A stretch of 64,000 nt of DNA, taken from contig JAENWA010000003.1 in assembly GCA_016650295.1 (NCBI GenBank), forward strand, positions 1-64,000. The letters are read 5' to 3'. The translations under genes and the position numbers were made by a program. Position 1 is the first letter of the stretch; every line of letters begins with the position of its first letter. Shown here piece by piece: positions 60,152 to 63,029 of the stretch. Under the pieces are notes generated by a model. That model saw nothing but the letters and a program-made list of their open reading frames with translations. It made no database searches and was not told where the DNA came from. Source of the DNA: Desulfuromonadales bacterium. Lineage in GTDB: Bacteria > Desulfobacterota > Desulfuromonadia > Geobacterales > Pseudopelobacteraceae.

Positions 60152-61627
60152 TTACTCCAGGCCCTGTTCGGCCAGCTCGATGGCTTTCATTACCGCCATG
60201 CCTTTGTTGACGGTTTCCTGCCATTCCGCAGCCGGGTCGGAGTCGGCCACGATCCCCGCACCTGCCTGAAGGTGAACCTTGCCGTCCTTGATCACCAGGG
60301 TGCGGATGGTGATGGCCAGATCCATGTTGCCGGAGAAGGAAAAATATCCTACCGCGCCGCCGTATACCTCACGCCGGACCGGCTCCAACTCATCGATGAT
60401 CTGCATGGCCCGGACCTTGGGGGCGCCGGAAAGCGTCCCGGCCGGAAAGGTTGCCCGTACCAGGTCAAAGGCATCACGGTTGCCGCCGAGTTCACCCTGC
60501 ACGTTGGAAACAATGTGCATGACGTGGGAGTAGCGTTCAATGACCATAAGTTCCGAAACCTTTACCGAAGCGGTTGTGCAGACCCGCCCCAAGTCATTTC
60601 TCCCCAGATCCACCAGCATGACGTGCTCGGCCCGCTCCTTGGGATCAGCCAGCAGTTCTTCCGCCAGACGGGCATCCTCTTCGGGTGTGCACCCGCGGGG
60701 ACGTGTGCCGGCAATCGGGCGCAACTCGACGTGGCGGCCCTCCTTGCGAACCATGACCTCCGGTGAGGCACCGGCAATGACAGTATCGTCCAGGCGCAGG
60801 AAAAACATGTAGGGGGACGGGTTGAGGGTACGCAGCACGCGATAGATGTCGAGCGGGTCGGCGGAGAGTTCACCGCTGAAACGCTGGGAAAGTACGACCT
60901 GGATGATGTCTCCGGAGCGAACGTATTCCTTGGCTTTTTCCACGGAGGTCTCGAAGTCCGTGCGTGAGACGTTGGACCGGAATTTGACCTGCCTGCCGGT
61001 GTCCGGCTGTGCTTGTGCCGGTAACTGAGCCCGCAGCCGTCTTATGATTGCATCAATCTTTTCCGTGGCCTGACGATAGGCCGCTTCCGGTTCAAGAGAG
61101 CCGTCCAGATGGGCGTTGGAAACAACCTTGATCTTTTGTCGCATGGTATCGAAAATTACGATGGTATCGGTGACCAGGAAATAGGAGTCATAGGCATCCA
61201 GCAGTGCCGGATTGTCCGTTGGCAGATGCTCAAAGTGACGCACCATGTCGTAGCCGAGATAGCCGACGGCGCCACCGAAGAAACGTGGCAATCCTTCAAC
61301 CTCTACCGGTGTAAAGCGCGCCAGGATGTCGCGGATTGTCGTCAGGGGGTCGGTTACGGTCAGTGTTGTCGTTATGCCTGCCTCAATAATCTCGACGGTA
61401 GTGCCCTTTGAACGAATGACCAGTGAGGGACTGGAGCCGAGGAAGCTGTAGCGGGCCCATTTTTCACCCCCCTCGATACTTTCGAGAAGAAAGGAAAAAC
61501 GTCCGTCATCCAGCTTTTTAAAGGCGGTGACCGGTGTGTCCATATCAGCCATGATCTCGCGATACACCGGGATCAGATTGCCCTGGCGGGAGAGGTCAAG
61601 AAATGCGGGGATATCGGGAAAGAACAT
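60152..61627 (-). CDS. trpE: Anthranilate synthase component I
   Basis: Makes anthranilate from chorismate, first step of tryptophan synthesis. 491 residues. N-terminal regulatory domain with the Trp-binding LLES-type segment (FSFLLESIEGGEKWARYSFLG), then the chorismate-binding domain (VLSQRFSGELSADPLDIYRVLRTLNPSPYMFFL, PIAGTRPRG, HVMLVDLGRNDLGRV, PAGTLSGAPKVRAMQIIDELEP, QAGAGIVADSDP). Divergent from aroF. No trpG or other trp gene lies within the 8 kb downstream. Confidence 0.95.
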   Translation of the reverse strand: MFFPDIPAFLDLSRQGNLIPVYREIMADMDTPVTAFKKLDDGRFSFLLESIEGGEKWARYSFLGSSPSLVIRSKGTTVEIIEAGITTTLTVTDPLTTIRDILARFTPVEVEGLPRFFGGAVGYLGYDMVRHFEHLPTDNPALLDAYDSYFLVTDTIVIFDTMRQKIKVVSNAHLDGSLEPEAAYRQATEKIDAIIRRLRAQLPAQAQPDTGRQVKFRSNVSRTDFETSVEKAKEYVRSGDIIQVVLSQRFSGELSADPLDIYRVLRTLNPSPYMFFLRLDDTVIAGASPEVMVRKEGRHVELRPIAGTRPRGCTPEEDARLAEELLADPKERAEHVMLVDLGRNDLGRVCTTASVKVSELMVIERYSHVMHIVSNVQGELGGNRDAFDLVRATFPAGTLSGAPKVRAMQIIDELEPVRREVYGGAVGYFSFSGNMDLAITIRTLVIKDGKVHLQAGAGIVADSDPAAEWQETVNKGMAVMKAIELAEQGLE

Positions 61628-61748: not shown

Positions 61749-61777
61749 TTGACATCATCACGTTCGATATGATTTAT
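61749..61777 (+). promoter_or_regulatory. Candidate promoter of the aroF leader
   Basis: A perfect -35 TTGACA (61749-61754) followed 17-18 bp later by a poor -10 (ATTTAT/TTTATT, 61772-61778). This places transcription start at or near the leader-peptide ATG (61786), which has no Shine-Dalgarno; the leader might be leaderless, or another promoter lies further upstream. Confidence 0.4.
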
Positions 61778-61785
61778 TCGACCAC

Positions 61786-61869
61786 ATGAAATCCAACAGC
61801 TTCTTTAGCGCATTTTATTTTTACTTCTGGTTCGGCTTTATCAAGCCGTCTGCCCGGGTAGAGGTGTAA
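61786..61869 (+). CDS. Aromatic amino-acid leader peptide of aroF
   Basis: 27 codons: MKSNS, then [13 protein letters not shown], then IKPSARVEV and stop. Ten of the 13 central residues are Phe (7), Tyr (2) or Trp (1), like the Phe run in the E. coli pheA leader peptide. Directly after the aromatic run, CCGTCTGCCC (61846-61855) can pair perfectly with GGGCAGACGG (61907-61916), which overlaps the upstream arm of the terminator at 61901. Stalling at aromatic codons would leave the first segment free to form an antiterminator; finishing the peptide would cover it and allow termination. The ATG lacks a Shine-Dalgarno. Function inferred but the logic is complete. Confidence 0.85.
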
Positions 61870-61900
61870 GCGCACGGAAGCGACCACATCACACACCACA

Positions 61901-61938
61901 AAGTCGGGGCAGACGGAAGTCTACCCCGGCTTTTTTTG
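61901..61938 (+). terminator. Attenuator terminator of the aroF leader
   Basis: AAGTCGGGGCAGAC (61901-61914) pairs with GTCTACCCCGGCTT (61919-61932), loop GGAA, then T7. Its left arm is shared with the antiterminator pairing to the leader-peptide region. Confidence 0.93.
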
Positions 61939-61961
61939 TTGCCGCGCTATCTGCGGCGGCC

Positions 61962-61992
61962 AAGGCCGGGGGACATCTTCCGGCCTTTTTTG
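61962..61992 (+). terminator. Second terminator-like hairpin just before aroF
   Basis: AAGGCCGG (61962-61969) pairs with CCGGCCTT (61980-61987), then TTTT; a small stem GCCGC/GCGGC (61941-61957) precedes it. It ends a few bases before the Shine-Dalgarno AAAGGAG, so it could add a second control point. Confidence 0.8.
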
Positions 61993-62009
61993 TGGGAAAG
62001 GAGCAGGGC

Positions 62010-63029
62010 ATGATTATTGTCATGAAGGCAGGTGCGGCAAAGAAGGACAAGGATGAGGTGTTGAGACGCATCAGGGAAATGGGCTATAAGCCGCATGTGA
62101 TCCACGGGGAGACCAGGGATGTCATTGGCGCCATCGGAGATGAGCGGGGCAAGGCTATGTTGCAATCGCTGGAGTCGCTGCATGGGGTGGAAAACGTGGT
62201 TCCGATCCTGCAGCCGTATAAGCTGGCATCCAAAGAGGTAAAAAAAGAGGCAAGTATGGTACGGATCAGCGATGATGTTGTGATCGGCGGAAGTCAGGTT
62301 ATCATGATGGCCGGCCCCTGTTCGGTAGAGAGTGAACAGCAGATCATCGCCTCCGCGTTGGCTGTCAAGAAGGCCGGGGCACACATTCTGCGCGGCGGAG
62401 CTTTCAAACCGCGCACCTCACCCTATTCATTCCAGGGCCTGGAGGAGGAGGGCTTGAAGCTATTGGCCAAGGCCCGCGAACTGACCGGACTGCCGTTCGT
62501 GACCGAGGTCATTGAGTCGGAAACAGCCGAACTGGTGGCCGGGTACGCCGACATTCTCCAGATCGGTGCCCGCAACTCCCAGAACTTTGCCCTGCTGAAA
62601 AAAGTCGGCCAGTTGAAGAAACCGGTTCTGCTCAAACGCGGCATGTCCATGACGATCCAGGAGTTCCTGATGAGCGCCGAATACATCATGAGCGAGGGCA
62701 ACCAGGCTGTTATCCTCTGCGAGCGCGGGATCCGCACCTTTGAGACCGCTACCCGCAACACGCTGGACCTTTCGGCGATTCCGGTCCTGAAGGGAAAGAC
62801 CCATCTGCCGGTGGTCATCGATCCGTCGCACGGGACCGGCAATCACCACTATGTGGCTCCCATGTGTTATGCAGCAGTGGCTGCAGGCGCTGACGGGCTG
62901 ATTGTGGAGGTACACCCCGATCCCGAGCATGCCTCCAGCGATGGGCCGCAATCTCTTAAGCCGGCCAAATTTGAAGCTATGATGGAGAAATTGAGGCTGT
63001 TTGCCGAGGCTGACGGAAGGACGTTGTAG
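62010..63029 (+). CDS. aroF: 3-deoxy-7-phosphoheptulonate synthase (DAHP synthase), Bacillus/Thermotoga type
   Basis: First enzyme of the shikimate pathway, joining PEP and erythrose 4-phosphate. 339 residues. N-terminal ferredoxin-like regulatory domain (~1-75, [20 protein letters not shown]) and catalytic barrel with [59 protein letters not shown] and [12 protein letters not shown]. In enzymes of this type the N-terminal domain binds Phe/Tyr. Start ATG 62010 with AAAGGAG upstream. Probably controlled also by the leader-peptide attenuator upstream. Confidence 0.95.

Follow-up and report, generated by a model that had tools for sequence, protein, structure and literature searches.

In the six-segment model of the enteric his operon, the leader RNA pairs either as 1:2, 3:4 and 5:6 or as 2:3 and 4:5, and 5:6 is the sole terminator. 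The choice between structures in such attenuators is usually assumed to be kinetic. For the entry step of aromatic amino-acid synthesis, an aroR–aroF attenuator of Corynebacterium glutamicum was reportedly described by Neshat et al. in 2014. In this bacterium aroR (Phe-Tyr-Phe) lies before aroF, and limitation of Phe alone raises transcription, whereas Tyr availability has no effect (PMC11802643); aroR–aroF attenuation of DAHP synthase is also treated in PMC4046766. Furthermore, the uORFC-13-1 motif of Acholeplasma, known from 24 sequences, places a predicted uORF with a Phe codon and a terminator before aroF (PMC8632094), and the trpL leader transcript of S. meliloti begins at its own ATG (PMC7298713).

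In this study, the region upstream of a DAHP synthase gene was analyzed in a window of 64,000 nucleotides from a Desulfuromonadales bacterium. Very likely the element in this region attenuates transcription of the DAHP synthase gene by a ribosome-mediated mechanism; this reading is based on sequence anatomy, conservation, covariation, codon placement and folding logic. A first-pass annotation had proposed such an attenuator and knew of no description in the group. No description from Geobacterales was found, in agreement with that statement, but attenuation before DAHP synthase as such has a precedent in C. glutamicum and has been predicted in Acholeplasma. A literature search, with many subscription papers outside its scope, returned no direct report of attenuation in Geobacter or its relatives, of leaderless starts in Geobacter or of tandem-terminator attenuators, and Rfam held no family matching the window region or eight relatives. 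The core mechanism is therefore of a known kind; what is new is the relay with two terminators, together with a start that is probably leaderless, the wide conservation and the additional target genes. For Geobacter and its relatives, which are environmentally important anaerobes, the element is a concrete candidate regulator of the entry step of aromatic synthesis.

Leader ORF, promoter and target gene

The leader ORF (Table 1) contains ten aromatic codons among its 27, namely seven Phe, two Tyr and one Trp, so that codons for the end products of the pathway are abundant in a short ORF 5' of a biosynthetic gene. When all six frames of the 64-kb window were scanned for at least nine aromatic residues in 12, the leader was the sole stretch found, and 20 first-order Markov resamples of the window contained none. 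In addition, the fold energy of the leader RNA lies 4.7 s.d. below that of dinucleotide shuffles. The 27-codon aromatic peptide of the first-pass annotation was thus recovered at 61786–61869 with its stop at 61867, as was its terminator at 61901–61932, for which we find a stem at 61900–61933 followed by a T run. Codon content would predict a response to all three amino acids; which of them matter, like the start of transcription, translation, stalling and termination, is something that we infer.

Table 1. Features of the leader region and the regulated gene, in window coordinates.
Feature	Position	Strand	Remarks
-35 of leader promoter, TTGACA	61749–61754	+	ends 31 nt before leader ATG
-10 of leader promoter (ATTTATT)	probably inside 61772–61778	+	
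Leader ORF	61786–61869	+	27 codons; stop 61867–61869; no Shine–Dalgarno sequence
Small hairpin, CGGCTT-TATC-AAGCCG	61833–61848	+	core of 1:2 (anti-antiterminator); within minimum-energy fold
Segment 2, antiterminator strand, CCGTCTGCCC	61846–61855	+	inside leader ORF; pairs with 61907–61916
Outer helix P0, 5' strand, CCACAAA	61896–61902	+	pairs with 61989–61995
Terminator 1 (3:4)	61900–61937	+	stem 61900–61933 and U-tract; -22.5 kcal/mol
Segment 3, GGGCAGACGG	61907–61916	+	part of terminator 1 left arm; partner of segment 2
Segment 4, CCCCGGCTTT	61924–61933	+	terminator 1 right arm
Terminator 2 (5:6), terminator-like hairpin	61962–61991	+	AAGGCCGGGGG-ACAT-CTTCCGGCCTT (61962–61987) and TTTT
Segment 5, AAGGCCGGGG	61962–61971	+	terminator 2 left arm; complements segment 4 over 10 bp with one G-U
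Outer helix P0, 3' strand, TTTGTGG	61989–61995	+	immediately 5' of ribosome-binding site
Shine–Dalgarno AAAGGAG of DAHP synthase gene	61997–62003	+	before ATG at 62010
DAHP synthase gene, type with FXD ferredoxin-like domain, regulated gene	62010–63029	+	profile matches

The upstream neighbour is trpE, which lies on the opposite strand (60152–61627) and is divergent, so the intergenic region has its own promoter. The distance from the end of the -35 element to the leader ATG is 31 nt in the window and 29–32 nt in 73 of 91 relatives; this fixed distance, together with the usual 17–18-nt spacer, places the start of transcription at or beside the leader ATG. Leader ORFs of the relatives mostly have no convincing Shine–Dalgarno sequence, whereas one precedes every DAHP synthase gene (a match of at least four bases in 91/91 loci). 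On these sequence features the leader mRNA is probably leaderless, with a predicted start at the ATG or within a few nucleotides of it. Desulfuromonas- and Pelobacter-type relatives have Shine–Dalgarno-like sequences before the leader instead.

The identity of the downstream gene as a DAHP synthase, as claimed earlier, is borne out by matches to NF006421 (511 bits, cut-off 335) and TIGR01361 (398 bits, cut-off 268), by Pfam PF00793 and by the N-terminal FXD domain PF18152. The same genome carries a paralogous DAHP synthase (G000:C47:10777-11751) that is 52% identical; no aromatic leader was found upstream of it, and the two isozymes are probably regulated differently. A second FWYGF-type match in the same genome (L140), as well as a match in G003 (L197), proved to have no aromatic leader ORF. 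A tandem pair of DAHP synthase genes was observed at L047, L072 (Rokubacteria) and L178, and in L047 and L072 the matched gene has the second copy directly 5' in place of a leader.

Conservation, covariation and codon placement

Homologous DAHP synthase genes were taken from public genomes. Nearly all genes above about 68% protein identity have an aromatic-rich short ORF that ends 130–215 nt upstream, and an aromatic leader was found 5' of DAHP synthase in about 105 loci. The consensus of the peptide in relatives is ..F.FYFWYGFYFRPSARVxV*, in which the Trp is invariant (81/81 aligned class loci) and the most conserved Phe codon, that before the Trp, is TTT in 64 cases, TTC in 17 and TTA or TTG in none. 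Judged from the aligned codons, the leader ORF is under selection at the amino-acid level. A covariance model built from 49 relatives detected the element in 242 of 277 class genomes, in 172 of the 187 that are well assembled and in 78 of 82 genera, almost always as a single copy per genome.

The perfect 10-bp alternative pairing claimed between 61846–61855 and 61907–61916 is exactly as described, segment 2 being the perfect reverse complement of segment 3. Among relatives the 2:3 helix is mostly 8–13 bp long, compared with 10 bp in the window; the prevailing sequences are GTCTGCCC for segment 2 and GGGCAGAC for segment 3. Departures from these sequences are compensated, as in GTCCACCC/GGGTGGAC and GTCGCCCCGG/CCGGGGTGGC, and diverged versions still pair (CATCGACCCG/CGGGTTGATG in L035/L039 and GCCTGCCC/GGGTAGGC in L043). 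Changes on both sides were found at four of the ten antiterminator pairs. In a 53-sequence alignment, the 2:3 pairing, its both-side-changed cells and its covariation score exceeded nearly all shuffles; none of 500 shuffles reached the covariation score, and all slid registers scored far worse. Permuting antiterminator partners among diverged loci gave equal strength in 4 of 20000 trials, and in 0 of 20000 when phylum loci were included, although such permutation tests lower rather than fully remove the effect of relatedness. Furthermore, the RNAalifold consensus structure of 49 aligned relatives is the antiterminator helix. The first-pass annotation had suggested aligning the upstream regions and looking for covarying stems; the ORF and the alternative pairing are indeed kept across Geobacterales and the wider class, and the mutually exclusive antiterminator is maintained with compensatory changes. 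The small hairpin at 61833–61848 is conserved as CGGCTTTTATTTTAGGCCG, and its variants keep the pairing (CGGT..ACCG in L028/L029; alignment inspected by eye).

In Rokubacteria and Methylomirabilota, the GTCTGCCC motif is translated in a different frame, as Val-Cys-Pro rather than Pro-Ser-Ala-Arg, which points to selection on the RNA there. The primary sequence of this motif (61848–61855 in the window, and present in most related loci) is kept across phyla and before unrelated genes. This constancy exceeds what pairing alone needs, and common descent or an extra sequence-specific role would account for it equally well.

At one locus of the same genus (L083, genome G003), nothing of the promoter, the leader or the two hairpins is present upstream of DAHP synthase. 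The gene there lies within about 45 nt of the preceding gene, the end of which resembles a response-regulator-like gene found upstream in L085 and L091. G003 is a natural comparison strain without the leader. A Geobacterales-like leader and DAHP synthase (77–78% identity) also occur on contigs labelled Thermodesulfovibrionales and Nitrospiraceae (L033 and L034), by either transfer or misbinning; some of the MAG names may be wrong.

Of all the evidence, codon placement argues most strongly for the attenuation mechanism. The RNA outside the ribosome was folded for a stall at each codon, with 12 nt taken as covered beyond the first A-site nucleotide. With segment 3 already emerged and segment 4 not yet made, the probability of the antiterminator in the window is near 1.0 for A-site codons 2–18 and at most 0.01 from codon 19 onward; codon 18 is the last aromatic codon of the leader. 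Across 84 loci (seven loci with a misassigned antiterminator were excluded), 806 of 1574 permissive codons are aromatic (51%), compared with 56 of 805 others (7%), and in 68 of the 84 the last aromatic codon lies at most one codon from the last permissive one. In many relatives the last Phe codons mark the edge of the zone in which a stall is permissive. This codon placement would leave the antiterminator strand exposed during a stall and occluded when translation runs to completion, and the scan reproduces the logic of the first-pass annotation, in which stalling favours the antiterminator and completion covers its segment. In the equilibrium ensemble, terminator 1 outcompetes the antiterminator even under a stall (P 0.73–0.85 at codons 14–16), so that a kinetic switch, like that of trp, would be required.

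Probable relay between two hairpins and rival explanations

An intrinsic terminator lies between the leader ORF and the DAHP synthase gene, and at least six T in the 8 nt past the terminator 1 stem are found in most class loci. Most class members also keep terminator 2. Because the left arms of the two terminators are alike, segment 4 is able to pair with segment 5 as well. The 4:5 complementarity persists as both sides vary, through GCCGGGG, GCCACGG (L044), GCCATGG (L068) and CCGCGGGC (Rokubacteria), and no permutation of partners was as good (0/20000 with n = 23, and 0/20000 with n = 21 including phylum loci). Pairing potential and covariation thus provide, as in his, a 4:5 alternative that could dismantle the terminal hairpin. 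Hairpin 3:4 of the window carries a U-tract as well, whereas termination by 5:6 alone holds in Rokubacteria, a group in which the spread of the element rests on eight loci: in seven Rokubacteria loci, 3:4 has no U-tract (0–3 T of 8) and 5:6 has one (5–7), so that the signal could reach the terminator only via 4:5. The simplest reading, and a probable one, is a his-type relay of six segments in which 3:4, 5:6 or both act as terminators. The 4:5 pairing was not seen in the full-length equilibrium ensemble, because terminator 1 dominates at equilibrium.

In the proposed scheme, a leaderless transcript would start at or beside the leader ATG. With ample Phe-, Tyr- and Trp-tRNA, the ribosome would reach the Pro-Ser-Ala-Arg codons or the stop and cover segment 2, upon which the two terminators would form in succession, 3:4 first and 5:6 next, and transcription would stop before DAHP synthase. 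Under a shortage of an aromatic aminoacyl-tRNA, the ribosome would stall at codons 6–18 and leave segment 2 free to pair with the emerging segment 3, blocking terminator 1; the freed segment 4 would then pair with segment 5 and remove terminator 2 as well. By such a relay (2:3 and 4:5 against 1:2, 3:4 and 5:6), a single stall would defeat two terminators. The earlier description of the attenuator as complete holds for the core; the second hairpin with its possible 4:5 relay, the probable leaderless start, the outer helix P0 and the relatives across the phylum were missed.

P0 varies with compensation within Geobacterales (CCGAAA/TTTCGG, CCGGAA/TTCCGG and CATACGC/GCGTATG), and its permutation test was significant at n = 30 (0/20000) and marginal at n = 12 (835/20000). 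This helix cannot act on termination, because its 3' strand is transcribed after both terminators. Its role may instead concern the structure of the full-length mRNA at its 5' end, where the helix might, as a guess, hold the ribosome-binding site accessible.

The main rival for the relay part accepts the same attenuator and takes the second hairpin as a back-up terminator or an mRNA stabiliser, with 4:5 having no role and the likeness of segments 3 and 5 being due to duplication of a terminator. Duplication alone would yield the 4:5 similarity; furthermore, the U-tract of the second hairpin is weak in many class loci, some Pelobacter/Desulfuromonas-type loci manage without this hairpin, and in the full-length RNA both hairpins lie within P0. 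However, segments 4 and 5 co-vary and stay complementary across distant clades, and the Rokubacteria leaders, in which 3:4 is not a terminator, would need 4:5 to reach 5:6. A second hairpin of this kind is possible but rather unlikely. A nascent-chain arrest peptide of the TnaC type, which would sense a free amino acid or another ligand instead of tRNA shortage, would explain why the core FWYGFYFRPSAR is conserved more than a codon count requires, with W and G nearly invariant. This is a very unlikely reading: the PSAR part is accounted for by RNA pairing, because other frames encode VCP over the same motif; the peptides of distant members differ (FFFFFYF, GYYYYGY) and have the aromatic codons alone in common; and the aromatic codons stop where tRNA-type stalling loses its use.

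Other explanations would make the short ORF incidental. The structured 5' region, the alternative pairings and the conserved P0 would suit a T-box or metabolite riboswitch, but the window region has no Rfam match above chance (best E 0.32), eight relatives likewise have none, and the ORF is selected at the amino-acid level; such a switch is highly improbable here. In the window region and the eight relatives, the weak Rfam matches to BSR0739 and ncS54 fell below gathering scores, and the Rfam model recognised no T-box with its stem, specifier loop and conserved T-box sequence. Two good hairpins in succession could also be a plain tandem terminator that shields DAHP synthase from upstream transcription, beside a coincidental aromatic ORF. 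Yet the region has its own promoter at a fixed spacing to the ORF, the ORF and the antiterminator are conserved, and the upstream trpE is divergent, which leaves shielding with hardly any credibility. Returning to the attenuator with a relay, the comparative set offers an attenuator with two terminators that a single stalled ribosome would still release, and indicates that the terminator can shift between hairpins in evolution.

Related leaders elsewhere and comparison with known systems

A phylum-wide search of 297 genomes gave matches at E of at most 0.01 in 92, most of them outside the class and weak. All 20 phylum loci that were fetched have an aromatic-rich ORF where expected, and most have a GTCTGCCC-type antiterminator and one or two terminators. 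The genes downstream, recognised by eye at several of these loci, encode DAHP synthase, an ADTH-synthase-like aldolase, phenylacetate-CoA ligase and Liv-type periplasmic binding proteins. That related elements stand before further gene families linked to aromatic compounds speaks for the attenuator. In L182 and L193, an aromatic leader attenuator precedes an archaeal-type aldolase that scores above the ADTH synthase cut-off, followed in L182 by a DHQ-synthase-II-like ORF; the same control would here be placed on a different shikimate entry enzyme. Aromatic leaders also stand before phenylacetate-CoA ligase, Liv-type transporters and IorAB outside the class (L176, L183, L194, L199, L201 and others). 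A Tyr-rich leader, GYYYYGYLRRSAL, heads an operon of a Liv-type transporter, a PaaK-like ligase, IorA (which exceeds its cut-off) and IorB (which narrowly misses one cut-off), and this gene content would fit arylacetate uptake and reductive carboxylation to aromatic amino acids. Leaders before PaaK, Liv and IorAB genes suggest that a route of arylacetate salvage leading to aromatic amino acids is under attenuation control.

Taking these loci together, we lean slightly towards an undescribed, phylum-spanning family of six-segment attenuators that are leaderless, often have two terminators, share a conserved GUCUGCCC antiterminator and sense aromatic aminoacyl-tRNAs. Such a family would control both shikimate entries (DAHP synthase, or the archaeal-type aldolase with DHQ synthase II) as well as arylacetate uptake and salvage (Liv-type transporter, phenylacetate-CoA ligase and indolepyruvate:ferredoxin oxidoreductase), and the bias of each leader would indicate the product. 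If this is true, Phe- or Tyr-biased leaders reveal the likely product of each operon. Because related leaders precede other operons, leader codons can be read as a functional label, by which certain Liv-type transporters, PaaK ligases and IOR enzymes of anaerobes are predicted to contribute to aromatic amino-acid supply.

Among the described systems, C. glutamicum aroR–aroF shares the aromatic-codon leader peptide before a DAHP synthase gene. Compared with the actinobacterial aroR, as described, the window element has Phe/Tyr runs, an invariant Trp, two terminators and a class-wide core. The Acholeplasma uORFC-13-1 motif is similar in its layout of uORF and terminator, a likeness of layout in an unrelated group. 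With S. meliloti trpL/rnTrpL (PMC7298713), the window shares, by prediction, the start of the attenuator transcript at the leader ATG; rnTrpL, however, concerns Trp only and another target, and has known trans-acting roles (PMC7298713). Neither Rfam Trp_leader nor Phe_leader matched the window region up to E = 1. The element resembles the enteric trpL and pheL in its leader peptide, its antiterminator/terminator logic and its presumably kinetic choice of structure, and differs from them in that the target is the first common step rather than a terminal branch and that a leaderless start is predicted. Finally, the proposed relay layout is shared with the his operon; unlike in his, 3:4 of the window also has a U-tract, whereas the Rokubacteria relatives match the his layout.
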